Origin: Nakamurella panacisegetis
GTDB taxonomy: Bacteria > Actinomycetota > Actinomycetes > Mycobacteriales > Nakamurellaceae
DNA: 64,000 nt
Reading direction: 5' to 3'
NCBI RefSeq assembly: GCF_900104535.1
Contig: NZ_LT629710.1
Span: 806,001-870,000, forward strand
Positions 43,877 to 57,174 of the stretch are shown here, piece after piece; the stretch's first letter is position 1, and each line of letters starts with the position of its first letter. The notes below the pieces were generated by a model, which had not been told where the DNA came from, did not search any database, and saw nothing but the letters and a program-made list of their open reading frames with translations. Made by a program: the position numbers and the translations under genes.

Positions 43877-44749
43877 ATGCGTCGGATACCGGTCGCCGGT
43901 GGTGACCTCGCGGTCCACGAACTCGGCGGCGGCGACGTCACCGTCGTCGCACTGCACGGCATCACGGCCAACGGCCTGACCTGGCTCCGGCTGGCCGGAG
44001 CCCTGGACGGAACCGCCCGGGTCCTCGCACCCGACCTGCGCGGACGGGCGGCGTCAGCCGGCACCACGTCGCCGCGCGGGCTGGGCGCCCACGTCGACGA
44101 CCTGCTGGCCGTCCTGGACGCCTACGGGCTCGAGAACACCGTTCTGATCGGCCATTCCATGGGCGCCTACGTGGCCGCCCTGGCCGGGGCCCGTCACCCG
44201 GACCGCTTCGCGGGAGTGGTGCTCGTCGACGGCGGTGTGGCCTTCCCGCCGCCGCCGGACCTCGACATCGATGCCCGCCTCGTCGCCACCATCGGACCGG
44301 CCATGCAGCGCCTGTCGATGACCTTCGCCTCGCCGGCGGCCTATCTCGACTTCTGGCGTCCGCACCCCGCGGTGGGTCCGCTGCTGACCGGTCCGACCGC
44401 CCATGACGTGGAGCAGTACCTGCAGCACGACCTGGTCCGGGACGGCGCCGAGTTCCGGTCCAGCTGCGTGGCCGAGGTGATCAGGGCCGATGGCGCTGAC
44501 GTGCTGGCCGATCCGGAGACGCACCGGGCGGCGGCCGCCGCGACCGTGCCGACCAGCCTCCTGTGGGCCGAGCGCGGCCTGCTCGACCAGGCTCCCGGCC
44601 TGCTCACCGCGGAGTCCATCGAGGCGGCCGGACTGCCGTCGACGGTCGACCTCCGGTTCGTGCCGGATGTGAACCACTACTCGATCATCATCGGCGACGC
44701 CGGCGTCCGTACCGTCGCCGAAACGGTCCGCCGGCACCTGCACCGCTGA
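43877..44749 (+). CDS. Alpha/beta hydrolase
   Basis: The ATG at 43877 lies 5 bp after the sepH stop, giving 290 residues. The oxyanion loop is LHGITANGLTW, the nucleophile elbow GHSMGAYVAAL (Ser in GHSMG), and the catalytic histidine is probably in VPDVNHYSIII. The fold and length fit haloalkane-dehalogenase- or esterase-like hydrolases. The substrate is unknown. It marks the left edge of the gene block that separates sepH from DUF2537. Confidence 0.88.
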   Translation: MRRIPVAGGDLAVHELGGGDVTVVALHGITANGLTWLRLAGALDGTARVLAPDLRGRAASAGTTSPRGLGAHVDDLLAVLDAYGLENTVLIGHSMGAYVAALAGARHPDRFAGVVLVDGGVAFPPPPDLDIDARLVATIGPAMQRLSMTFASPAAYLDFWRPHPAVGPLLTGPTAHDVEQYLQHDLVRDGAEFRSSCVAEVIRADGADVLADPETHRAAAAATVPTSLLWAERGLLDQAPGLLTAESIEAAGLPSTVDLRFVPDVNHYSIIIGDAGVRTVAETVRRHLHR

Positions 44750-44826
44750 GCAGAGCACGGGAACGAGTTCCGACCGCGCGAAAAGAACTGGGTCCTGTCG
44801 GTGGCCCGACGTAGCCTGACCCGGCC

Positions 44827-46647
44827 ATGACGAATTCGAAACCAACTGCCCCGACGGCCCCGGCGAATCCTCGCACCACGACCACGGCGTCATTGAAACG
44901 CTTGCTGCCGTTCGCCCGCCCGGCCCTCCCCGCCCTTGGCGCCTCCGCTGTCGCGGCGATCGTGGCAACGGTTTGCGGCCTGACGTTTCCGCTGGTCATC
45001 CAGTGGATCATCGACGGCCCGATCGCGCGTCGGCAGCTAGGCGGGCTGTGGTGGCCGGCCGTCTTGCTGGTGATCCTGGGCGTCGCCGAGGCCACCCTCT
45101 TCTGGGCCCGGCGCATGCTCGCCACCCGCCCCACCATGCGGGTCGAGGCGTCGATGCGCGCGGCGCTGTACGAGCGCCTGCAGCAACTTCCGGTGTCGTT
45201 CCACGACCGCTGGCCGGCCGGCCAGCTGTTGTCCAGGGCCGTGTCCGACCTGTCGACGATCCGACGATTTCTGGCCTTCGGCCTGGTCTTCCTGGTCGTC
45301 AACCTGGCCACCTTCGTGATCGGGGTGGGCATCCTGATCACGCTGTCCTGGCCGCTCGGCCTCATCGTCGCCGCGCTGGCCATCCCGTTGGTGTTGTTGT
45401 CGTTCCAGTACGAATCGCGCTACCAGATCCTGGCCCGCCGCTCCCAGGACCAGGTGGGCGACCTGGCCACCGTCGTCGAGGAATCGGTCCTGGGCGTCCG
45501 CATCCTGAAGGCCTTCGGCCGCAGTTCGCACCTGCGGCGATCGTTCCTGCGGCAGGCCGGCGACCTCCGCGACACGGAACTGTCGAAGTCGAAGGTGATC
45601 TCCGTGCTGTGGGCCGTGATCATCGCGCTGCCCGAGATCGCGCTGGGCATCGCCCTCGTCCTCGGGGTTCGGCAGGTGGCCGCCGGCACGCTATCGGCGG
45701 GCACGCTGGTCGCCTTCTTCGGTACCGCCATGGGCCTGCGCTGGCCGATCGATTCGATCGGATGGCTGCTGGCCATCGCCAACGACACCGCCGCCGCGTC
45801 CGACCGCTACTTCGAGGTGATGGACGCGCCGGTCACCGTCACCTCGCCGGACCACCCGATCCCGGCACCGAACCCTTCCGGGCGGCTCAGGCTCAAGGAC
45901 GTGCGGTTCCACTTCGCCGACGCGGCCGCCGTGGACGGGCACCCCGCCGACACGCTCCGCGGCATCGACCTGGATCTGCACCCCGGCGAGACGGTGGCCC
46001 TGGTCGGGGCGACCGGGTCCGGCAAGACAACCCTGTCAGCCCTGATCAACCGGCTCTACGACGTCACCGGCGGCTCGATCGAGCTGGACGGTGTCGACAT
46101 CCGCGACCTGGATCTGGATGTGCTGCGCTCCCGTGTCTCGGTCGCCTTCGAGGAACCCACCCTGTTCTCCGCCTCGGTGCGGGAGAACGTGCTGATGGGC
46201 AAGCCGGACGGGTCCGATGACGAGGTGCGCGCCGCTCTGGCCGTCTCCCGCGCCGACTTCGTCGACGAGCTGCCGTGGGGCCTGGACACCCGGATCGGAG
46301 AGCAGGGGATGTCCTTGTCCGGTGGCCAGCGGCAGCGACTGGCCCTGGCCCGCGCCGTCGTCGCGCACCCGAGCGTGCTGGTGATGGACGATCCGCTCTC
46401 GGCGCTCGACATCCACACCGAGGCCGAGGTGGAGGCCGGCCTGCGCTCCGTCCTGGCCGGCACCACCACGCTGGTCATCGCGCACCGGGCGTCCACCGTC
46501 ATGCTCGCCGACCGGGTCGCGCTGCTGCAGCACGGCCGGATCGCGGCCGTCGGTACGCACTCGGAACTGATGAGTACCGTGCCCGCCTACCGGGATCTGC
46601 TGGCCAGCCGGGACGACGCGGCTCGCGCGGCGGAGGTGAACGCATGA
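44827..46647 (+). CDS. ABC exporter half-transporter with degenerate Walker B site
   Basis: The 606-residue protein has six membrane helices followed by an ATPase domain. Walker A is GATGSGKTT (Lys400), the signature is LSGGQRQRLALARAV, and Walker B reads VLVMDDPLSALD. The residue after the Walker B aspartate is Asp522 instead of the catalytic glutamate. This is the hallmark of the degenerate half of heterodimeric exporters (TM287/288, BmrCD type). Its stop overlaps the partner gene start (ATGA). Lipids, drugs or peptides are possible cargo. Confidence 0.92.
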   Translation: MTNSKPTAPTAPANPRTTTTASLKRLLPFARPALPALGASAVAAIVATVCGLTFPLVIQWIIDGPIARRQLGGLWWPAVLLVILGVAEATLFWARRMLATRPTMRVEASMRAALYERLQQLPVSFHDRWPAGQLLSRAVSDLSTIRRFLAFGLVFLVVNLATFVIGVGILITLSWPLGLIVAALAIPLVLLSFQYESRYQILARRSQDQVGDLATVVEESVLGVRILKAFGRSSHLRRSFLRQAGDLRDTELSKSKVISVLWAVIIALPEIALGIALVLGVRQVAAGTLSAGTLVAFFGTAMGLRWPIDSIGWLLAIANDTAAASDRYFEVMDAPVTVTSPDHPIPAPNPSGRLRLKDVRFHFADAAAVDGHPADTLRGIDLDLHPGETVALVGATGSGKTTLSALINRLYDVTGGSIELDGVDIRDLDLDVLRSRVSVAFEEPTLFSASVRENVLMGKPDGSDDEVRAALAVSRADFVDELPWGLDTRIGEQGMSLSGGQRQRLALARAVVAHPSVLVMDDPLSALDIHTEAEVEAGLRSVLAGTTTLVIAHRASTVMLADRVALLQHGRIAAVGTHSELMSTVPAYRDLLASRDDAARAAEVNA

Positions 46648-48539
46648 CCGATCAGAACAACACCACCGGGACCGGCGGGCTGGGAACGAGGATGATGAGC
46701 ACCCCCGCCGTGCCGCTCGACCCGAACGCCGACAACGCCTGGCGCGGAGTCGCCGCCGAGGATTCGGGCGACATCTCGGTCGAGGTCGGCATCAAGCTCC
46801 AAGCGCGATCGCGCCGACTGCTCGGGTCACTGCTGCGGCCGCACCGCCGACTCACCGTGCTGGCCACCGTCATGGTCGTGATCAGCGAACTGGCCTTCCT
46901 GGTCGGCCCGTTGATCGTCGCCTACGGGATCGACACCGCGGTGCCGGCCCTGTCCGCCGGCAACGGAGCTCCGCTGACCTTCACGGCCATCGCCTACCTC
47001 GGAGCCGGGGTGGTCAATGCGTTGGCCAAGGCCACCTTCGTGCGGTTGTCGGCACGGATCTCGCAGGCCGTGTTGTTCGACCTCCGGGGTCGGGTCTTCA
47101 CCCATTCCCAGTCGCTGAGCCTGTCCTTCCACGAGAAGTACACCTCGGGACGGGTCATCGCGCGGATGACGAGCGACCTCGACACCCTCTCCGACCTGGC
47201 TGAACAAGGTCTCGACGGGCTGATCTCGGGTGTGCTGTCAGTGGTGGCGATCAGCGTCGCGCTGCTGTTCCTGGATCTGCCGCTCGGCCTGATCGCGCTA
47301 CTGGCGATGGTTCCGGTCTTCCTGCTGACCCGATGGTTCCAGGGCACCTCCCGCACGATCTACCGGCGCACCCGCGCCGCCATCGCATCGCTGATCGTGC
47401 AGTTCACCGAGACGATGAACGGCCTCCGGGCAGTGCTGACGTTCCGGCGGCAGGGCCGCAACGCAGCCATCTTCGCCGGGTTCAACAACGAGAACGCGGC
47501 CGCCAACGGCGACGGGTTGGTCGCACTGGCCCGCTACACCCCCGGGGTGCGGCTGGTCGGAAACCTGGCGCTGACCGCCGTGATGATCGTCGGCGCGGTG
47601 CAGGTGATCAACTCGCAGCTGGACATCGGCGTGCTCGCGGCGTTCCTGCTGTACGTGCGCCGGATGTACGACCCGCTCGACGAGCTGGCCATGTTCTACA
47701 ACTCCTACCAGTCGGCGGCGGCCGCGCTCGAGAAGTTGTCGGGCCTGCTCGAAGAGGTACCGAGCGTCCCGGAACCGGTCGACCCGGTCCCGCTGCCCGA
47801 CGTCACCGGACACGTCCGGTTCGAACAGGTGGAATTCTCCTACCACCCGGACGTGCCGGTGCTGCCGACTTTCGATCTGGATCTGCCGGCCGGGCAGACC
47901 CTGGCCGTGGTCGGCGCCACCGGAGCCGGAAAGTCGACGCTGGCCAAATTGCTGGCCCGGTTCTACGACCCGACCGCCGGCCGGGTCCTGCTCGACGACG
48001 TGGACGTCTCCCACCTCTCGACGGCCGATCTGCGCCGCGGAGTGGTGATGGTGACCCAGGAGTCCTTCCTGTTCTCGGGCTCGGTGGCCGACAACATAGC
48101 GCTGGGCAAGCCGGAGGCCACGCGGGCCGAGATCGAGGCCGCGGCCGACGAGATCGGGGCCGGGGACTTCATCCGGGCCCTCCCCGACGGCTTCGACACC
48201 GACGTCCGCAAGCGGGGCGGGCGGCTGTCGGCCGGGCAACGTCAGCTGGTCGGGTTCGCCCGTGCATTCCTGGCCGATCCGGCCGTGCTGATCCTCGACG
48301 AGGCCACGGCCTCCCTCGACATTCCGTCGGAGCGAGCGGTGCAGGCCGCCCTGCGGACCGTGCTGCACAACCGGACCGCGGTGATCATCGCCCACCGGCT
48401 GTCGACCGTCGAGATCGCCGATCGGGTGCTGGTGATGGAGCACGGACGGATCGCCGAGGACGGCCGGCCCGCCGACCTGATCGGCGGCGGCGGCCGATTC
48501 GCCGGCCTGCACACCGCCTGGCAGGATTCGCTGGTCTGA
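46644..48539 (+). CDS. ABC exporter half-transporter with catalytic Walker B site
   Basis: The ATG at 46644 gives 631 residues. A soluble N-terminal part of about 65 residues precedes six membrane helices. The ATPase domain has GATGAGKST (Lys430), signature LSAGQRQLVGFARAF and VLILDEATASLD with catalytic Glu553. The signature has Ala in place of the second Gly, which matches the degenerate site it would form with the partner's Asp522. With the overlapping upstream gene it makes one heterodimeric exporter. Confidence 0.92.
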   Translation: MTDQNNTTGTGGLGTRMMSTPAVPLDPNADNAWRGVAAEDSGDISVEVGIKLQARSRRLLGSLLRPHRRLTVLATVMVVISELAFLVGPLIVAYGIDTAVPALSAGNGAPLTFTAIAYLGAGVVNALAKATFVRLSARISQAVLFDLRGRVFTHSQSLSLSFHEKYTSGRVIARMTSDLDTLSDLAEQGLDGLISGVLSVVAISVALLFLDLPLGLIALLAMVPVFLLTRWFQGTSRTIYRRTRAAIASLIVQFTETMNGLRAVLTFRRQGRNAAIFAGFNNENAAANGDGLVALARYTPGVRLVGNLALTAVMIVGAVQVINSQLDIGVLAAFLLYVRRMYDPLDELAMFYNSYQSAAAALEKLSGLLEEVPSVPEPVDPVPLPDVTGHVRFEQVEFSYHPDVPVLPTFDLDLPAGQTLAVVGATGAGKSTLAKLLARFYDPTAGRVLLDDVDVSHLSTADLRRGVVMVTQESFLFSGSVADNIALGKPEATRAEIEAAADEIGAGDFIRALPDGFDTDVRKRGGRLSAGQRQLVGFARAFLADPAVLILDEATASLDIPSERAVQAALRTVLHNRTAVIIAHRLSTVEIADRVLVMEHGRIAEDGRPADLIGGGGRFAGLHTAWQDSLV

Positions 48540-48626
48540 GCGGCGGAACGCGGCGCTCGGCCAACCGACCGGGCCTGCCCGGCGCGGAGCGCGGTTCAAC
48601 TCACCGGCGCCGGGAGACGGGCCCGG

Positions 48627-49514
48627 TCAGCTGATCTGGGCGATGTTCTGGACGGCCACGAACAGTCCGATCGCGATCAACATGGCGGCGAAGATCCGGG
48701 TCAGCAACCGGTCCGGGAGACGGCCGGCGATGGTCTTCCCGGCGAGGGAGGCCGCCATGGCGGCGATCGTGAACGGCACGATGATCGCCCAGTGGAAGTG
48801 CGCCGTGCCGGCCCGGGCCACCAGGGAGGCGGCGGAGTTGATCGCGATGATCAGCAACGATGTGGCCGCCGCGACCGGCATCGACAGGTCGAACAACAAC
48901 ACCAGGACCGGGACGATGACGAAACCGCCGCCGACGCCGAAGAATCCGGTCATGAAGCCGACCCCGAGGCCGGCGACGAGGATCTTCGCGCCCGCGGTCC
49001 AGCGGCTGCCCTGGCCGAACTCCCGGGACCGCGCCGGAGCCTCGCCGACCGGCGAAGCGGCGCGGGCAGCGACGGTCCGTTCGGCGTCGGAGCTCTCGGC
49101 CGGTCCCGCGAATCTCGCGGCCCCGACGGAAGCGGTTGCCGGCTCGGGCTTTCGGTTGCGGGCGCGCAGCAGCATGCCGGTGGCCGCCAGACCCATCACC
49201 ACCGCGAAGGCGATCAGCAGGTAGTGCTGGTTGACCTGCCGGTTCAGGGCCGTCCCGAGGTAGGCGGCCGCCGTGCCGGCGATGCCGAACATCACCCCGA
49301 GTCGCCAGCGGACGTGCCCGCTGCGGGCGTAGCCGATCATGCCGGTCAGCGCGGCCGCCCCCACGATGATCAGGCTGCTGGTGGTCGCGTCGCGGGCCGA
49401 CTGTCCCAGCAGATACACCAGGGCGGGCACGGTCAGGATCGCGCCGCCGCCGCCCAGGGCACCGAGGAAGGCCCCGATCACCAGCCCGAGGCCCAGTGCG
49501 GCCAGGGCGGTCAT
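48627..49514 (-). CDS. TauE/SafE-family sulfite/sulfonate exporter
   Basis: The ATG at 49514 gives 295 residues with about eight membrane helices in two homologous halves. The family motifs appear as FLGALGGGGAILTVPALVYL in the first half and TGFFGVGGGFVIVPVLVLLF in the second. A hydrophilic loop of about 50 residues separates the halves. Members export sulfite, sulfoacetate or related sulfur anions. Its start overlaps the stop of a GntR regulator (49511-49514), and a persulfide-dioxygenase-like gene diverges from them. The set suggests removal of sulfite made from persulfides. Confidence 0.88.
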   Translation of the reverse strand: MTALAALGLGLVIGAFLGALGGGGAILTVPALVYLLGQSARDATTSSLIIVGAAALTGMIGYARSGHVRWRLGVMFGIAGTAAAYLGTALNRQVNQHYLLIAFAVVMGLAATGMLLRARNRKPEPATASVGAARFAGPAESSDAERTVAARAASPVGEAPARSREFGQGSRWTAGAKILVAGLGVGFMTGFFGVGGGFVIVPVLVLLFDLSMPVAAATSLLIIAINSAASLVARAGTAHFHWAIIVPFTIAAMAASLAGKTIAGRLPDRLLTRIFAAMLIAIGLFVAVQNIAQIS

Positions 49515-50356
49515 GCGACGGTCCCGGCGATGTGGGTGGAGCCCGGCGGTCGCGGGGCCGTGACGCCGGCGCCGGGGTCGAAGTGGTAGCCGGCCGGGGT
49601 GAACTGGGCGGTGAGGCTGAATCGGTCGGCCCGGACGAGGGTGTGCCGCCACTCGACCGGCACCCCGTCCGAGCAGCCCAACCGGTCAAGAGCCAGGGCC
49701 GCCACCTCCGGTGGGTTCTGCAGCAACCGCGCTTCGCCCGCCGTCGGGACGACGGCGCGGATGAGTTCCTGACCGCCGGTCAGCCGGACGCCGCAGAGTC
49801 TGTGCATCTGCTCGTACAAGGAAGTGTGGGTGAAGTCGACCTCCAGCAGCGGTGCGGCCCAGGACGCCGCCAGGTAGATCCGGTCCACGGCAAGCGGTTC
49901 ATCCCCGGCCAACCGGAGACGCTCGAGGTGCACCAGCGGCGTGGACTCCTCGAGTCCAAGGCGGGTGGCGACGACCCCGTCGGCGCGGACGTCCAGCCGA
50001 CGGACGATGCTGCGCTGGGTCAACCCCGCAGCCTCGACCGACGCGAACAGGCTGTAGAGCGCGCCACCCATCTGCTGCTGGATCACCGTCGGCTCCGCGA
50101 CGGTCGACGCCCGCCCCCGGGCGGCGGTCACCAGACCGTCACTGCGCAACGACCGCAACGCTTCACGGATGGTGTGCCGGCTCGCCGCGTACTCCTGCGC
50201 CAAGGCATGCTCGCCGGGGAACCCGTCGTGGAACTGACCGGCCAGCAGCCGTGCCTGCAGGTCTTCACGCACCTGACGCCACAGCGGGCCGACGCCGGTC
50301 AGCGCGCGTCCGTCGACCGCCCGAGGTGACCGGTACGGCACCTTCATCGTCCTCAT
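49511..50356 (-). CDS. GntR-family (HutC-like) transcriptional regulator
   Basis: The ATG at 50356, with GAGG upstream, gives 281 residues; ATG 50347 is a second choice. The winged helix is WRQVREDLQARLLAGQF ... GEHALAQEYAASRHTIREALRSL. The C-terminal UTRA-type domain ends in WRHTLVRADRFSLTAQFTPA. The upstream palindrome at 50406 is a good operator. It is the first gene of a two-gene operon with the TauE/SafE exporter and diverges from the MBL-rhodanese gene, so it probably senses a sulfur compound. Confidence 0.88.
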   Translation of the reverse strand: MRTMKVPYRSPRAVDGRALTGVGPLWRQVREDLQARLLAGQFHDGFPGEHALAQEYAASRHTIREALRSLRSDGLVTAARGRASTVAEPTVIQQQMGGALYSLFASVEAAGLTQRSIVRRLDVRADGVVATRLGLEESTPLVHLERLRLAGDEPLAVDRIYLAASWAAPLLEVDFTHTSLYEQMHRLCGVRLTGGQELIRAVVPTAGEARLLQNPPEVAALALDRLGCSDGVPVEWRHTLVRADRFSLTAQFTPAGYHFDPGAGVTAPRPPGSTHIAGTVA

Positions 50357-50405
50357 CACGCGGGACCTCGATTCCGTTTGTCGTCCACTCGGCCTAGAGT
50401 ACCGA

Positions 50406-50419
50406 AATGTACGTACATT
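50406..50419. promoter_or_regulatory. Perfect 14-bp palindrome, probable GntR operator
   Basis: AATGTACGTACATT lies between gntR (start 50356, minus) and the MBL-rhodanese gene (start 50470, plus). It contains a GT-N4-AC core (GTACGTAC) as in GntR-family sites. One dimer here could control both directions. Confidence 0.7.
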
Positions 50420-50469
50420 CAACGCGGTGGCCATACGGACACCGAAACGCGCGGCGACGAGGAGAACCC

Positions 50470-51921
50470 ATGAGGGTCGAAGTGATCGACACCAGCGAGC
50501 TCGGTGACCGGAGCTACGTGGTCCACGACGGGCGCACGGCGATCGTGGTCGACCCGCAACGCGACGTCGACCGGGTCGAGGCGATCCTGGCCACCAAGGC
50601 TCTGAGCTGCGAGGCGGTACTGGAGACCCACATCCACAACGACTACGTCACCGGTGGGTACGTGCTGGCTCAGCGCACCGGCGGGGCCTACGTTCTCTCC
50701 GGCGCCGATCCGGTCGATTTCGATCGGGTTCCGGTCGAGGACGGCGCCGTGTTGAACTTCGGCGCCCTGCGGGTGCGGGTGATCGCCACTCCGGGCCACA
50801 CCGACACCCACCTGGCGTACGTGGTCGACCAACCGGGCTCGGCCGACTCCCCGGCGGTGTTCACCGGCGGTTCGCTGCTGTTCGGTTCAGTGGGCCGGAC
50901 CGATCTGGTCGACCCGGCGCGGACCGAGGAACTCACCCACGCGCAGTACCACTCCGCCCGTCGGCTCTCGTCGATGCTCGATCCCGACGTGCCGGTCTAC
51001 CCCACCCACGGGTTCGGCTCGTTCTGCTCGTCCGGCTCGGCCACCGGCGGCGACTCCTCCACCATCGGAGCCGAACGCGCCCGCAACGACGCCCTCACAG
51101 CGGCCGACGAGGAAGGCTTCGTCGCGGCGCTCATCGCCAACCTCACGGCCTACCCGGCCTACTACGCACACATGGCACCGCTGAACCGGCAGGGTCCGAC
51201 CGCCATGGATCTTTCGGCACCGAAAGTGGTTGGCCCGCAACAGCTGCCGCATCTGATCTCGGCCGGTGACTGGGTGGTGGATCTGCGGGAACGCACCGCC
51301 TACGCGGCCTCCCACCTCGACGGGACGATCAGCATCGCGCTCGGCGCCCAGTTCGCCACCTACCTGGGCTGGTTGATGCCCTGGGGTGAGAATCTGACCC
51401 TGCTCGGCGAGACGGCCGAGCAGATCACCGACGCCCAGCGCCAACTCGCCCGGATCGGTATCGACCGACCGGACGGCGCCGCGGTCGGCGCCGCCGAATA
51501 CCTGGCCGCCGGGCGGCTCAGCAGCTACCCGCGGGTCAGCTTCCCCGACGCCGCCCACGCGCTGGGCCTGGGACACACCCACGATCACGGCCATCCGCAC
51601 GGCCACCACGACCGCAACGGTCAGGTCGTACTGGACGTGCGGCGCGACGACGAGCGCGCCGTCGGCTTCATCCCCGGATCCGCCCACATTCCGCTGCACT
51701 CGCTGCTGGCCCGACTGGACGAGGTCCCACCGGGACGGTTGTGGGTGCACTGCGCCAGTGGGTTCCGGGCCTCCATCGCCGCCAGCCTGCTCGCCCGCGC
51801 CGGCCGCGAGGTCATGTACATCGACGACACCTACGACACCGCGGTGGCCATGGGGCTGACCTCGACGCGCATCGAACTCCAGGACGAATCAGAACGGGAC
51901 GCGGGCCTCGTGCGCGGCTGA
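50470..51921 (+). CDS. Metallo-beta-lactamase persulfide-dioxygenase-like protein with two rhodanese domains
   Basis: The ATG at 50470 behind GGAG gives 483 residues. The N-terminal MBL domain has THIHNDYVTGG (His54, His56, Asp58), GHTDTH and TGGSLLFGSVGRTDL, as in ETHE1/CstB proteins. A first rhodanese domain (about 275-335) lacks a catalytic cysteine. A second (about 385-470) has Cys428 in VHCASGFRAS. A His-rich loop HTHDHGHPHGHH joins them. CstB-type enzymes oxidise low-molecular-weight persulfides to thiosulfate or sulfite. The divergent GntR-TauE operon would then regulate and export the product. Confidence 0.9.
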   Translation: MRVEVIDTSELGDRSYVVHDGRTAIVVDPQRDVDRVEAILATKALSCEAVLETHIHNDYVTGGYVLAQRTGGAYVLSGADPVDFDRVPVEDGAVLNFGALRVRVIATPGHTDTHLAYVVDQPGSADSPAVFTGGSLLFGSVGRTDLVDPARTEELTHAQYHSARRLSSMLDPDVPVYPTHGFGSFCSSGSATGGDSSTIGAERARNDALTAADEEGFVAALIANLTAYPAYYAHMAPLNRQGPTAMDLSAPKVVGPQQLPHLISAGDWVVDLRERTAYAASHLDGTISIALGAQFATYLGWLMPWGENLTLLGETAEQITDAQRQLARIGIDRPDGAAVGAAEYLAAGRLSSYPRVSFPDAAHALGLGHTHDHGHPHGHHDRNGQVVLDVRRDDERAVGFIPGSAHIPLHSLLARLDEVPPGRLWVHCASGFRASIAASLLARAGREVMYIDDTYDTAVAMGLTSTRIELQDESERDAGLVRG

Positions 51922-52092
51922 CACCACGGCGGCGATCCGCCGCACGCGGTCACCCCAGCGACCTCGCGTCTCCGGCTGGACGGGCACCGGCAGCGCTTCG
52001 GGATGCGGCTCGACCGGAGCGGTCGGGTCGTGGTGCGGCACGGGCGGAGTCTGGTCGCCATACGGCAACGCGGAAGGCCTGGTGTACGACAT
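51889..52092 (-). CDS. Possible small protein (67 aa), weakly supported
   Basis: A frame from ATG 52092 encodes a Pro-rich soluble peptide ending WGDRVRRIAAVVSAAHEARVPF. It overlaps the end of the MBL-rhodanese gene by 33 bp and has no clear ribosome site. The C-terminal helix looks protein-like, but no family is recognised. It may be a non-coding frame. Confidence 0.3.
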   Translation of the reverse strand: MSYTRPSALPYGDQTPPVPHHDPTAPVEPHPEALPVPVQPETRGRWGDRVRRIAAVVSAAHEARVPF

Positions 52093-52374
52093 GAGATGAC
52101 TCGGATTCTGTGAAGGTGGCGGCAGGTGACGGGCCGCGAACCATCAAAGAGGTGGCTCAGCGGCAGGCGTCGCCGCAACAGAGCCGATCATCAACCGACA
52201 GGGGCGTCACACCGATCAGGCACACGCAGAATGCTGTGCCCGCTCCCGGCGCGATGGTGTCCACGGGACCAGAGAACCACACCGTCACCTCGAGGGGCAA
52301 CCACGCGAGGTCGGTCCGTCCCCGCGCTCCGCGCCGGTCACCCCCGGCCCGGCGCCCCGATCCGGCGGCGGGAC
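52093..52374. other. Region with no clear gene; possible Cys-rich leader peptide at 52157-52225 (minus)
   Basis: No standard gene is visible. On the minus strand a 22-codon frame from GTG 52225 (or 17 codons from GTG 52210) ends at 52157 and encodes TPLSVDDRLCCGDACR. The clustered cysteines are suggestive beside sulfur and arsenic genes, like cysteine-sensing leader peptides. There is no good ribosome site, and the only downstream frame is the weak one at 52092, so support is low. Confidence 0.3.
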
Positions 52375-52800
52375 CTACGACTGGCCGACGTCGGCCCGTA
52401 GGTGCTCGGCGAGAGCCCGGACCCGGGCGGCGATGTCGTCGCGCACGAGCCGCATCCGCTCGATCCCGTCTATCCCCCGCTCGGAGGGTTCGTCGGTGTC
52501 CCAGACCTCGACCGGGGTGTCACCGACCGGCCGGACGTGCGCGTCGCGGCCCAGCACGACGACGCGGTCGGCGGCGGCGACCATGTCGTCGGTGAGCTGC
52601 CGGGTCCGCTCGCCCGTGATGTCGACTCCCAGTTCCAGCAACGACTGCGCGGACAGGGCGTTGATCGTGTCGCCCGGCTGTGTCCCGGCCGAGGACACCT
52701 CGACCTCGTCGCCGACGGCGGCTCGCATGAGCCCCGCGGCCATCTGCGACTTTCCGCCGTTCTTCACGCACACGAACAGGACAGACGGTCGATCGGTCAT
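52375..52800 (-). CDS. arsC: Arsenate reductase, mycothiol-dependent type (ArsC1/ArsC2-like)
   Basis: The 141-residue protein has the low-molecular-weight phosphatase fold. Its P-loop is CVKNGGKSQM (Cys11), with Lys17 at the usual arginine position. This NGGKSQ form is that of the Corynebacterium arsenate-mycothiol transferases, which join arsenate to mycothiol for reduction by mycoredoxin. There is no second cysteine pair. It is the last gene of the minus-strand arsenic cluster. Confidence 0.85.
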   Translation of the reverse strand: MTDRPSVLFVCVKNGGKSQMAAGLMRAAVGDEVEVSSAGTQPGDTINALSAQSLLELGVDITGERTRQLTDDMVAAADRVVVLGRDAHVRPVGDTPVEVWDTDEPSERGIDGIERMRLVRDDIAARVRALAEHLRADVGQS

Positions 52801-52881
52801 CGGCTGCTCCGGGTGGTGTCGGCCTGGCCGGGGCGGACCCGGCCCGCGGTCGATGGAGTCGCGTTCGCGATCACGACGTCG

Positions 52882-53292
52882 TCAGACCTTGGCCGGGAGC
52901 AACTCGGCGATCAGAGCCTCGACCCGGCGGCGGATCTCGTCGCGGATCGGCCGGACCGCCTCCACGCCCTGACCGGCCGGATCCTCCAGCTCCCAGTCCT
53001 CGTAGCGTTTGCCGGGGAAGATCGGGCAGGCGTCACCGCAGCCCATGGTGATCACCACGTCGGAGGCCCGCACGGCCTCGGAGGTCAGCACCTTGGGCAC
53101 CTGCGCGGTGATGTCGACTCCCACCTCGGACATGGCCTCGACGGCGGCCGGATTGACCTGATCGGCGGGCACGGATCCGGCCGAGCGGACTTCGATGGCG
53201 CCACCGGACAGGGCGGTCAAGAACCCGGCGGCCATCTGGGACCGACCCGCGTTGTGGACACAGACGAATAGCACGGAAGGCTGGTGAGGCAT
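52882..53292 (-). CDS. arsC: Arsenate reductase, second type with internal cysteines
   Basis: The 136-residue protein has a canonical P-loop CVHNAGRSQM (Cys11, Arg17) and a second motif MGCGDACPIFPGKRYEDW with Cys85 and Cys89. The extra cysteines suggest an intramolecular disulfide mechanism recycled by thioredoxin-like proteins. With the neighbouring mycothiol-type enzyme the cell would have two routes from arsenate to arsenite. It lies 43 bp downstream of acr3. Confidence 0.88.
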   Translation of the reverse strand: MPHQPSVLFVCVHNAGRSQMAAGFLTALSGGAIEVRSAGSVPADQVNPAAVEAMSEVGVDITAQVPKVLTSEAVRASDVVITMGCGDACPIFPGKRYEDWELEDPAGQGVEAVRPIRDEIRRRVEALIAELLPAKV

Positions 53293-53335
53293 CAGTGGTG
53301 ACTCCGATCGGGACGGGATTCGGGACAGGACATGG

Positions 53336-54460
53336 TCAGGACTTCACGGCCGTGCCGATCCCGCGGCCGGTCGCGGGGACAGCGGGGTCGTCGGGGAACA
53401 GGCGTCGGCCGGCCCAGAGGGCGACGTAGACCAGGGCGACCAGGGCCGGCACTTCGATCAGCGGCCCGACCACTCCGGCCAGGGCCTGACCGGACGTGAC
53501 GCCGAAGGTACCGATGGCCACCGCGATGGCCAGTTCGAAGTTGTTGCCGGCGGCGGTGAAGGCCAAGGTGGCGGTCTTGGCGTAGCCGAGGCCAAGGCGG
53601 CGGCCGAGGCCGAATCCCACGCCGAAGGTGATCACGAAGTACACGATCAGCGGCAGCGCGATCCGGGCGACGTCCCAGGGCCGGCTGGTGATCTGGTTTC
53701 CCTGCAGGGCGAACAACACGACGATGGTGAACAACAGCCCGTACAGCGCCCACGGCCCGATCTTCGGCAGCACGGTCGACTCGTAGTACGCCCGGCCCTT
53801 TCGCTTCTCGCCCAGGGTCCGGGTCAGGAAGCCGGCCACCAGCGGTATCCCGAGGAACACCAGCACGGAGACAGTGATCGCGCCGACCGAGAACCCGGCC
53901 GAGGTGGTGGCCAGCCCGAGCCAGCCCGGCAGCACCTGCAGGTAGAACCAACCGAGCGCACCGAAGGCAAGGACCTGGAAGACGGAATTGATGGCCACCA
54001 GCACGGCCGCAGCTTCCCGGTCGCCGCAGGCCAGTTCGTTCCAGATCATCACCATGGCGATGCAGCGGGCCAGCCCGACGATGATGAGCCCGGTCCGGTA
54101 CTCGGGCAGATCCGGCAGCAGCAGCCACGCCAGCGTGAACATCAGCGCCGGCCCGACGATCCAGTTCATCACCACGGACGCGATCAGCAGGCGTTTGTCG
54201 CCGGTGACCCGGCGGGTCTCGTTGTAGCGGACCTTGGCCAGCACCGGGTACATCATCACCAGCAGGCCGATGGCGATCGGCAACGACACCGACCCGACCT
54301 TCACCGCGTCCAGGCCCTTGGACAGGCCGGGGACCACCCGGCCCAGCAGCAACCCGACGGCCATGGCCGCGATGATCCAGACCGGGAGGAACCGGTCCAG
54401 CCGGGACAGCTTGGCCAGCACCGCCGGGGCGGCGACGTCCGGTGCGGGGGCCGTGGTCAC
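53336..54460 (-). CDS. acr3: Arsenite efflux permease, Acr3 family
   Basis: The GTG at 54460 overlaps the arsM stop by 4 bp (GTGA) and gives 374 residues with about ten membrane helices. Diagnostic stretches are VGLARCIAMVMIWNELACGD, with the essential cysteine, and FTAAGNNFELAIAVAIGTFG. Acr3 carriers expel arsenite by proton exchange. The gene is in the order arsM-acr3-arsC-arsC. Confidence 0.93.
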   Translation of the reverse strand: MTTAPAPDVAAPAVLAKLSRLDRFLPVWIIAAMAVGLLLGRVVPGLSKGLDAVKVGSVSLPIAIGLLVMMYPVLAKVRYNETRRVTGDKRLLIASVVMNWIVGPALMFTLAWLLLPDLPEYRTGLIIVGLARCIAMVMIWNELACGDREAAAVLVAINSVFQVLAFGALGWFYLQVLPGWLGLATTSAGFSVGAITVSVLVFLGIPLVAGFLTRTLGEKRKGRAYYESTVLPKIGPWALYGLLFTIVVLFALQGNQITSRPWDVARIALPLIVYFVITFGVGFGLGRRLGLGYAKTATLAFTAAGNNFELAIAVAIGTFGVTSGQALAGVVGPLIEVPALVALVYVALWAGRRLFPDDPAVPATGRGIGTAVKS

Positions 54461-55344
54461 CGGCACCCACAGGCCGTTGTCGGGGCCTGCCCGGTGGCGC
54501 TGGTGTCGCAACAGGCGGACTCGTCCGCTGGATCGTGGCGGGCGGCCGGCGCCGACGACGCACAGCAGTCGGCCGCGGCGGGCTTGGCGGCTCGGATGAT
54601 CGCGCCGTGCAGACCGTCGGCCACCTGGTGGGTGAACACGACCTCCGGGCCGTCGAACCCGGCCGCGACCAGTCCGTCGAGATATTCGGTGACCGACAGC
54701 GCACCCGCGATGCAGCCGACGTAGGAGCCTCGATCGGTCCGATCGGCGGGGGTGAGGCGATCCTCGGCCACGACGTCGGAGATGCCGATCCGTCCCGCCG
54801 GCGCCAGTACCCGGAACATCTCGGCCAGTACGGCCGGCTTGTCGGTCGACAGATTGATGACGCAGTTGGAGATGATCACGTCGATCGATGCGTCAGGGAG
54901 CGGGATCTGTTCGATCTGCCCCTTGAGGAACTCGACGTTCTGCGCGCCCGCGCGAGAGGCGTTGGCGCGAGCCAGCTCCAGCATCTCGTCGGTCATGTCC
55001 AAGCCGTAGGCGAAGCCCGATGGACCGACCCGTCGAGCCGAGAGCAGCACATCGATACCCCCTCCGGATCCCAGATCCAGCACCCTCTCCCCGTCCCGGA
55101 GATCCGCGACGGCCAGCGGGTTACCGCAGCCGAGCGATGCCAGCACCGCCTCGGCCGGCAGGCCGTCGGTCTCGTCGGCCCCGTACAGGTTCGCACCGAA
55201 CCGGTCGGATTCGTCACCGATCGCGACCACCGACAGTGCGTCGGTCGGGCCGCAGCAACTGGCGCCCGTTCCGGAACCGACAGCTCGCGCGGCGGCGGCG
55301 TAGCGGTCGCGGACGTGCTCACGGAGCTCGTCGGTCTGGCTCAT
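54457..55344 (-). CDS. arsM: Arsenite S-adenosylmethionine methyltransferase with Cys-rich tail
   Basis: The ATG at 55344 follows AAGGG and gives 295 residues. The SAM motif is [16 protein letters not shown]. Arsenic-binding cysteines are Cys30/31, Cys161 (SNCVINLS) and Cys211 (GSYVGCIAG). The last 36 residues add three further cysteine groups (260/261, 278/279, 292/294), ending ACGCR. ArsM methylates arsenite to volatile or less toxic forms. The tail is an extension beyond the family core. It is the first gene after the divergent arsR. Confidence 0.93.
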
Positions 55345-55393
55345 GGCTGACACCCTTCATAGATGAACGTCGATGCCTCAACCATGGCTGTAC

Positions 55394-55413
55394 ACATAGA
55401 CCTTTGTCAATGT
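55394..55413. promoter_or_regulatory. Probable ArsR operator in the arsM-arsR divergent region
   Basis: ACATAGAC-CTTT-GTCAATGT is an inverted repeat with one mismatch in eight. It lies 20 bp before the arsR start and about 50 bp before the arsM start, well placed to repress both. Confidence 0.55.
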
Positions 55414-55432
55414 CTGGCGCATACTGGTCTCC

Positions 55433-55801
55433 ATGACGAGCCGGACCGATCTGCCGCTGACCGACGTGGCGTGCTGCGCCCCGCTCACCCGCGTGCCCTT
55501 GACCGCGGCGGACGCCTCCGCCCTGGCTCAGACACTGAAGGCCATCGCCGACCCGACCCGACTGCGGTTGCTGTCCATGGTCGCCGCGCACGAGGGCGGC
55601 GAGGCGTGCGTCTGTGATCTGACCGAGCCGCTCGGCCTGACCCAGCCGACCATCTCCCACCACCTCAGGGTCTTGGTCGACGCCGGGCTGCTGACCCGCG
55701 ACAAGCGAGGCGTGTGGGCGTACTTCACGTTGGTGCCGGGTGCGTTGGACTCCCTCGCCGCGGTGCTGTCCAGCCAGGACCCGGCAGTGGTCACGGCCTG
55801 A
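55433..55801 (+). CDS. arsR: ArsR arsenic-responsive repressor
   Basis: The 122-residue winged-helix protein has the metalloid-sensing pattern EACVCDLTEPLGLTQPTISH (CVC at the start of the DNA-binding helix) and an N-terminal VACCAPL that may supply more ligands. It diverges from arsM-acr3-arsC-arsC and should release DNA on binding As(III). An imperfect palindrome lies 20 bp upstream. Confidence 0.92.
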   Translation: MTSRTDLPLTDVACCAPLTRVPLTAADASALAQTLKAIADPTRLRLLSMVAAHEGGEACVCDLTEPLGLTQPTISHHLRVLVDAGLLTRDKRGVWAYFTLVPGALDSLAAVLSSQDPAVVTA

Positions 55802-55826
55802 CCGGCGGCTCCGGAGGTGCCCCGGC

Positions 55827-56216
55827 TCAGACGAGGAAGACCAGCGCGCACAGCCAGGCGGACAACAGTCCCAGCACGGCGCCGGCTCCGATCCAGCGAA
55901 GGACCGGCAGATTCCGCGACAGCCACAGCGCGGGCCCGAGACCGCCCGCGACGAGGACGTTGACGGCAATGGCCAGGATCGGGCGGTCCGCCAGCCCCGA
56001 CGAGAGCACGTAGACCGCACTGGCCACGAGGAACAGGGTGAATCCGGACAGGGCCAGCCCGGGCCCCCACGGGACGGGCTCGCCGCCCGCGCGCCACTCC
56101 TCCACCCAGGCCCATTCGACCGGTTCGTACTGGTCGACCGATTCCTCGGCGTGGACCGGCTCATCGAGATCGGCCGGTTCAGCGTCGCCTGACCGTGGGT
56201 CCGACGGCGTGTTCAC
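55827..56216 (-). CDS. DUF2537 membrane protein
   Basis: The C-terminal part is a small protein with four membrane helices (ALSGFTLFLVASAVYVLSS ... VLGLLSAWLCALVFLV) and a conserved WAWVEEWRAGGEPVPWGPG before them, typical of the actinobacterial DUF2537 family (M. tuberculosis Rv0882-like). The start is uncertain: GTG 56216 gives 129 residues, while a TTG at 56396 would overlap the methyltransferase gene. It follows that gene on the same strand, as in mycobacteria. Function unknown. Confidence 0.75.
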   Translation of the reverse strand: MNTPSDPRSGDAEPADLDEPVHAEESVDQYEPVEWAWVEEWRAGGEPVPWGPGLALSGFTLFLVASAVYVLSSGLADRPILAIAVNVLVAGGLGPALWLSRNLPVLRWIGAGAVLGLLSAWLCALVFLV

Positions 56217-56373
56217 CTCGGGGTCCGGCGTCCGCGTGACCACCTGCAGCACCCTCGGCGCCGAGTCCTGCGGCCCCACGGACGGGTCGCCGTGCGGCCC
56301 GGTCACGGCCGGCCAGCGATCGGCAGTCGGGTGAACGAAGCTTCCATCAGCACAGTCTGCCGCACGCCGTCGG

Positions 56374-57174
56374 TCATCCGGTCGCGATCTCGGCAAAGGC
56401 GATGGCGCCGGCGGTGGCCACGTTCAGCGAGTCGACACCGGGCGCCATCGGTATGCGCACCTGCAGGTCGGCCGACTCCAATGCCGCGTCGGTCAGCCCT
56501 GGCCCTTCCGAGCCCAGGAGCACGGCCACCTTCCGGCCGGCCAACCCGGCTTGCCGCAGCGTCACCGCCGACGGTTTCGGGGTCAGCGCGGTCACGGTGA
56601 AACCCTTGCTGCGCAACAACTCCGCCGGGGCAGGCCATGACCCGGACAACCCGGCGAACGGAACCAGCAACACCGTACCCATGGACACCCGGACACTGCG
56701 GCGGTACAGCGGGTCCGCGCAGCCCTCACCCAGGAGGACCGCCCCGATCCCCAACGCGGCCGCGTTGCGGAAGATCGACCCGAGGTTCTCGTGGTCGCCG
56801 ACGCCTTCCAGCACGGCCACCGAGCGGACCGAATCCAGAAGCTGCGCCGTGGGCGGGAAGGCGATCCGGTCGGCGGTGGCCAACACCCCGCGGTTCAGGT
56901 GGAACCCGACCACCCGGGCCATCAGGTCAGCGGACGCCACATAGAACGGCGCCTCCAGGTCACTCAGATCCGGGGCCAGTTCGTCGAACCGGCCCCGGAC
57001 CCCCAACAGGGCGCGCACCGGGTAGGCCGATGCAATCAGCCGACGGACCACGACGGTGCCTTCGGCGATCACCAGCCCGCGGCCGCCGGGCCGGTCGGGT
57101 CGGCGGTCGGCCGTCGTCAGGTCGCGGAAGTCGTCGAGGCGAGGGTCGGCGGGGTCGGTGATGTGGATCGGCAT
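56374..57174 (-). CDS. SpoU-family RNA 2'-O-methyltransferase
   Basis: The ATG at 57174 gives 266 residues. The N-terminal substrate-binding domain (1-105) is followed by a SPOUT knot with all three motifs: ENLGSIFRNAAALG, VLLGSEGPGL and IPMAPGVDSLNVATAGAIA. It methylates ribose 2'-OH in rRNA or tRNA. The M. tuberculosis counterpart in the same gene order is Rv0881. The target site cannot be read from the sequence. Confidence 0.9.
   Translation of the reverse strand: MPIHITDPADPRLDDFRDLTTADRRPDRPGGRGLVIAEGTVVVRRLIASAYPVRALLGVRGRFDELAPDLSDLEAPFYVASADLMARVVGFHLNRGVLATADRIAFPPTAQLLDSVRSVAVLEGVGDHENLGSIFRNAAALGIGAVLLGEGCADPLYRRSVRVSMGTVLLVPFAGLSGSWPAPAELLRSKGFTVTALTPKPSAVTLRQAGLAGRKVAVLLGSEGPGLTDAALESADLQVRIPMAPGVDSLNVATAGAIAFAEIATG

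Follow-up and report, generated by a model that had tools for sequence, protein, structure and literature searches.

The 64,000-nucleotide stretch of Nakamurella panacisegetis DNA analysed here (the window) holds a gene for a GntR-family regulator with a UTRA domain, which is separated from a divergent gene for a metallo-β-lactamase (MBL)-rhodanese protein by the perfect palindrome AATGTACGTACATT (50406-50419, assigned to neither strand), a probable operator that has been conserved in front of GntR relatives as well as sulfur genes. Judged from comparison of sequences, this association of a GntR regulator, an operator, and a sulfur gene set looks real and conserved. We propose that a widespread actinobacterial GntR/UTRA subfamily acts as a sensor of sulfite (an inorganic sulfur oxyanion) and coordinates, via the 14-bp operator, the oxidation of sulfide and persulfide with the export of sulfite, a reading to which a probability of roughly 45% was assigned. 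Shown here are the gene order, the domain composition of the proteins, the conservation of the operator, and its location in front of sulfur genes, whether GntR is adjacent or not; DNA binding, repression, the nature of the ligand, enzyme activity, and the direction of transport are inferred.

The comparison comprised 108 GntR loci, namely, those of the 80 best of 535 relatives from named genomes, 27 others, and the window; many of them are close kin (several are from Pseudonocardia and Amycolatopsis), and the counts are not independent. A locus was considered to contain the motif when the 330 bp that precede GntR residue 24 held a match to RATGTMCGKACATY with at most two mismatches. This was the case for 66 of the 108 loci, 44 of them without any mismatch, compared with 27 of 2,081 random fragments from the same loci that served as the control (some of the matches in which may be further operators). 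Pairwise identity among the 66 sites was 87% across the 14 bp versus 30% across 40 flanking bases; because the sites had been selected by the motif, only this contrast between the 14 bp and the flanks is informative.

Presence of the motif went along with presence of sulfur genes, six types of which were scored within 5 kb: MBL, TauE, SQR-like, rhodanese, YeiH, and sulfite oxidase. SQR-like here denotes FAD/NAD(P)-binding oxidoreductases, the best NCBIfam match of which was the model for type III sulfide:quinone reductase (SQR), below cut-off (233.7 versus 525); of the YeiH cluster, the one member profiled (L069) matched PF03601 above cut-off and TIGR00698 (YeiH) below cut-off (129.5 versus 232.6). 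Any of the six types was found near 63 of the 66 motif loci versus 13 of the 42 non-motif loci (Fisher 4e-13, a value overstating independence because many of the loci are close kin). The sharpest partner of the motif was TauE or YeiH (60/66 versus 7/42); the corresponding numbers were 39/66 versus 12/42 for MBL and 23/66 versus 7/42 for SQR-like genes. YeiH was near 20 of the 66 motif loci and was the sole one of the six types in 18 of them; wherever a named locus had both motif and YeiH (19 of 19), YeiH and GntR diverge from one another with the site between them. This divergent arrangement with the palindrome in between was seen in Amycolatopsis and relatives (L110, L114, L119, L120, L121, L124, L125, and others). 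The three motif loci outside the six-type count are neighbored by DsbA/thioredoxin-type and CcdA/DsbD-type genes (L031), by a SulP transporter and a molybdo-oxidoreductase gene (L034), and by a TtrB/PhsA-like pair (L073); taken by themselves, PhsA-, PhsB-, or SulP-like genes do not track the motif (3/66 motif loci versus 8/42 others). L046, counted among the non-motif loci, does contain an exact site, which is located ∼120 bp in front of its MBL match.

Relatives of the regulator were found in 3 of 17 genomes of the family (E 1e-25) and in 17 of 394 genomes of the class (E 1e-45), the genome of N. panacisegetis included in either case, as well as in 20 of 72,556 plasmid records (E 1e-40). Five of the seven plasmid records examined (from Rhodococcus and Mycobacterium) carried gene annotation in the relevant stretch, and in all five, an MBL hydrolase and a TauE gene were near GntR; four of them additionally had rhodanese genes and one for a FAD/NAD(P)-binding oxidoreductase, and one had a sulfite oxidase gene. 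Among the best 80 of the 535 named relatives, MBL was found within 5 kb of 36, TauE of 30, SQR-like genes of 22, and rhodanese of 20, and 42 of the 80 had no MBL, SQR-like, or TauE gene, 19 of which carry a gene of the YeiH cluster. A preliminary description of this stretch, which regarded the genes as a sulfur-detoxification unit, had made that view depend on conservation of the gene set and the palindrome in other genomes; both were looked for there and found conserved, and in this respect the view stands.

The palindrome was also used for searches irrespective of the regulator gene. An exact AATGTMCGTACATT occurred in 2 of 296 genomes of the class, that of N. panacisegetis and that of L046, and an exact RATGTMCGTACATY at 10 places in the 394 class genomes, 6 of them at GntR orthologs. 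Eleven whole genomes, 10 of them from Pseudonocardia, were searched by pattern only (in 9 of the 11 the GntR locus is without motif); AATGTMCGTACATT with at most one mismatch was present in 9 of them versus 1 for the reversed control. Thirteen regions cover every listed site in these 11 genomes. In 10 of them, the promoter side of an MBL, SQR-like, rhodanese, YeiH, or GntR match faces the site at a distance of no more than about 200 bp. In eight of these 10 there was no GntR match, one of the eight (L168) lying ∼10 kb from the GntR gene of L118. This constitutes good evidence that the reach of the predicted regulon extends beyond the surroundings of the regulator gene. No such gene was near the site in the remaining three regions (L161, L163, and L164). 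In L164, a one-mismatch palindrome (1331-1344) precedes a gene for a JAB-domain protein, followed by one for cysteine synthase (TIGR01136, above cut-off), which hints that the regulon may reach cysteine synthesis, or may be due to chance. For the N. panacisegetis genome, a wider regulon was sought with a degenerate motif (at most two mismatches) and rejected as a candidate; there were 98 matches per strand versus 13 for the reversed control, and among the matches listed, most were GC-rich half-sites.

The arrangement previously reported for the window, an MBL-rhodanese gene diverging around a perfect palindrome from a GntR gene that overlaps a TauE/SafE gene by 4 bp, was confirmed by coordinates and Pfam matches. 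The GntR gene (minus strand, 49511 to about 50356, 281 amino acids from its likely start) and the gene for the TauE/SafE-family anion exporter (minus strand, 48627-49514, 295 amino acids; PF01925, E 6.8e-47) have the ATGA at 49511-49514 in common, as end of the former and start of the latter. By its predicted domains, a winged helix (PF00392, 1.5e-12) and a C-terminal UTRA domain (PF07702, 5.3e-30), both above cut-off, the regulator is a member of the HutC/UTRA subfamily of GntR proteins; 3f8m, DasR, and YvoA are its relatives in the PDB, and no equivalog cut-off was reached against NCBIfam. Only GntR and UTRA profiles were matched, which sets the protein apart from LysR-type sulfite sensors such as YeiE. 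An alternative ATG for the GntR gene is present at 50434 in the same open frame, and the palindrome would then be located within the gene; 50356 was judged the likely start because homology begins downstream of the ATG at 50434. The palindrome is 49 bp away from this likely start and 50 bp away from the ATG of the MBL-rhodanese gene, thus midway between the divergent starts. AATGTACGTACATT occurs exactly only once in the 5.01-Mb genome, and the window contains no other match to it with up to three mismatches (0.11 expected in shuffles). No RNA element was found in 46000-56000 at Rfam thresholds, and no YeiH match in 44001-57000.

The divergent gene (plus strand, 50470-51921) encodes a protein of 483 amino acids with matches to PF00753 and, once, PF00581, which aligns with 3tp9 over residues 14-445 and with 3r2u, presumably CstB, over residues 11-333 and 383-453. 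It comprises MBL, a degenerate rhodanese, and a Cys-bearing rhodanese in one chain, as do CstB and persulfide dioxygenases of this kind; the C-terminal rhodanese has Cys428 in the motif CASGFRA, and the middle one has no cysteine. Of the two domains in the earlier designation as a double rhodanese, Pfam calls the second (PF00581) and not the first, which becomes apparent from alignment with 3tp9 and 3r2u. Persulfide dioxygenases bind their single iron via His, His, and Asp. The His motifs are present in the window protein, which has Gly134 (50869-50871) at the position of the Asp (in "GD") found in each of the five PDB relatives displayed. With this exchange at the presumed iron-ligand position, dioxygenase activity should not be taken for granted, and the protein was not filed as CstB; the previous label "CstB-like" is apt for the order of the domains and not for this position. 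Some MBL-rhodanese proteins form a group with GGS rather than GD at this position: 58 aligned stretches from other loci comprised 35 with GGS, 18 with GD, and 5 that were partial or disrupted, and both types occur in GntR loci.

GntR had been regarded as taking the place of the CsoR/CstR-type sensors usual for such genes, a notion that finds no support in this form because both kinds of unit are present in the genome. In cst-type operons, a CsoR-family sensor is encoded beside the enzyme, whereas at the window, GntR is found instead and CsoR-family genes lie elsewhere. CsoR-family profiles matched three places in the genome, two of them near the two ends of the contig, and at both ends a gene for an MBL-rhodanese protein 55% identical to that of the window is positioned tail to tail with a CsoR-family gene (L183, 2970-4721; L189). 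The two ends (9 kb compared) are not letter-identical but align over their full length with 0 mismatches and 11 gaps; an overlap of the ends is therefore probable (about 13.5 kb, provided that the register holds), and the two copies would be one locus. Given this CsoR-side unit, the GntR unit is an addition to it. The best SQR match in the genome was distant (29% identity).

It appears probable that the GntR/UTRA protein represses a sulfur-detoxification regulon, its own gene included, and is released by a ligand. Bound to the palindrome (consensus RATGTMCGKACATY) that separates the GntR gene from that for MBL-rhodanese, it would repress both divergent promoters. Oxidation of sulfide or persulfide would yield a sulfur oxyanion, most likely sulfite, which would occupy the UTRA pocket and release GntR from the DNA; MBL-rhodanese could then process persulfide sulfur, and the TauE/SafE protein would export sulfite. 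R146, R148, and R237 of the regulator are invariant in one alignment (A1), and the first two align with RVR of YvoA; we assume that the three residues line an anion pocket. Sulfite is favored as the signal because the best-shared partners of the motif are genes of the sulfite-export type (TauE and YeiH), and also because YeiH, the only one of the six types at 18 of the 66 motif loci, is tied to sulfite in Salmonella, where it is the main sulfite resistance factor in vitro, under the control of YeiE, a LysR protein that binds sulfite (PMC12880088). Set against all other signals taken together, sulfite is placed at just under even odds.

One such other signal is persulfide or polysulfide, sensed via Cys188 of the UTRA domain in a manner akin to the thiol modification of ScCsoR, which acts through persulfidation of Cys37 (PMC7533328). 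Cys188 is invariant in a second alignment of 11 members (A2; one of them, L031, is not sulfur-linked by the above count) and is present in 35 of the 63 loci with motif and sulfur genes. It is replaced in 27 of them (by Thr in 22 and Ala in 5) and falls into a gap in one, despite the fact that operator and genes are kept, and the regulators of L065 and L130 contain no cysteine from any usable start (nor does that of L066 if it starts as in L065). As some regulators are free of cysteine, persulfidation of a thiol cannot be the general sensing step; Cys188 was rejected in that role, a persulfide signal that acts on a thiol finds no general support, and this route is considered unlikely. Doubtful, too, is an effector other than sulfite, such as thiosulfate, sulfate, an organic sulfonate, or a thiol metabolite. 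UTRA domains bind small metabolites, some of the loci carry SulP, molybdo-oxidoreductase, or thioredoxin/CcdA-type genes, and the site in L164 precedes a JAB-domain gene with a cysteine synthase gene behind it, all of which would be in keeping with such an effector, as would the annotation of TauE from the Staphylococcus aureus cst operon as putative sulfonate/thiosulfate efflux (PMC5480029). On the other hand, YeiH, present near 20 of the 66 motif loci, is experimentally linked to sulfite in Salmonella (PMC12880088), and no sulfonate degradation gene was noted, though none was specifically searched for. That the adjacency is incidental, with a generic GntR protein, unrelated sulfur genes, and a palindrome arisen by chance, is highly improbable: 29 of the 108 loci have neither the motif nor any of the six sulfur gene types, and the neighbors of GntR are unrelated in some Pseudonocardia, but motif and sulfur genes co-occur far above the controls, also away from GntR.

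Several observations weigh against the regulator being a sulfite sensor of a conserved regulon. Upstream of GntR, the motif is missing from 42 of the 108 loci, 13 of which still have sulfur genes, and kinship among the loci inflates the statistical association; as the sample consists of the best 80 of 535, the proportions of motif and sulfur genes may not hold for distant GntR members. Four of the 10 exact RATGTMCGTACATY sites in the class are farther than 5 kb from any gene of the reference set, and matches to the reversed control pattern occurred in 7 of the 394 genomes. In the genome of N. panacisegetis, the window site alone is exact, so that no wider regulon is shown there. Neither sigma-70-like promoters nor terminators were found in 50300-50520, and the lack of the former is unfavorable as well. 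The SQR-like genes near 23 of the 66 motif loci act upstream of sulfite and fit a sulfide or persulfide signal equally well, and Gly134 weakens the case for an enzyme that would make sulfite.

The proposed sulfite-responsive circuit resembles known systems in part. ScCsoR of Streptomyces coelicolor represses persulfide dioxygenase, rhodanese, and TauE genes and its own (PMC7533328); the window is alike in that MBL-rhodanese, TauE, and the regulator gene itself would be under a single repressor, but ScCsoR is of the CsoR family, responds by Cys37 persulfidation, and recognizes ATACCn6GGTAT, whereas the window has GntR/UTRA and RATGTMCGKACATY. With YeiE-YeiH (PMC12880088), it has in common a regulator gene divergent from that of an exporter-like protein, the YeiH-family gene diverging from GntR in 19 named motif loci; YeiE, however, is a LysR-type activator of yeiH, and the gene set considered here is wider, including genes for sulfide and persulfide oxidation. 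YvoA, DasR, and PhnF, which are GntR proteins with UTRA domains, have the same two domains and the aligned Arg pair. The signals to which known members of this group respond are sugar phosphates, histidine intermediates, or those related to phosphonate/phosphate. CstB of the S. aureus cst operon likewise unites MBL, a degenerate rhodanese, and a Cys-bearing rhodanese in one protein; the regulator there is CstR, and 3r2u keeps the Asp where the window protein has Gly134. The CstR regulon includes tauE and sqr, and the gntR mentioned in the same source is a sulfide-induced gluconate repressor, not the cst regulator (PMC5480029). None of the titles and abstract beginnings listed by searches of open-licence literature described a GntR regulator of persulfide or sulfite genes, nor was a GntR regulator of sulfur genes encountered in the consulted parts of PMC8707978, PMC8148161, and PMC11356490. 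A GntR gene is mutated in a desulfurizing Rhodococcus (PMC5218467); the passages on it do not tie it to that of the window.

Directly downstream of the MBL-rhodanese gene lies an arsenic cluster (52375-55801), consisting of two genes of the LMWPc family (ArsC-like), a divergent ArsR-family gene, and genes for an ACR3 arsenite exporter (TIGR00832, above cut-off) and an arsenite methyltransferase (NF008823, above cut-off). On the other side (44827-48539, plus strand), two adjoining genes encode MsbA-like ABC exporters, perhaps a heterodimer, which stayed below the cut-offs of the NCBIfam models listed.

In the parts of the literature consulted for comparison, responses to sulfide and persulfide run via thiol-based sensors, for example, ScCsoR and CstR. 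If the proposal is true, actinobacteria would possess a second route, probably a ligand-binding one, made up of a conserved GntR/UTRA regulator, its sharp operator, and a set of SQR-like, MBL-rhodanese, rhodanese, TauE, and YeiH genes. As a sulfite sensor, the regulator would parallel YeiE from within an unrelated protein family and offer an alternative to sulfur sensors of the CsoR/BigR type that does not use thiols. A single protein and a single DNA probe would suffice to test the sensing of sulfite directly, and the findings point to a role for this GntR subfamily, of which 535 candidate relatives turned up in a single scan.

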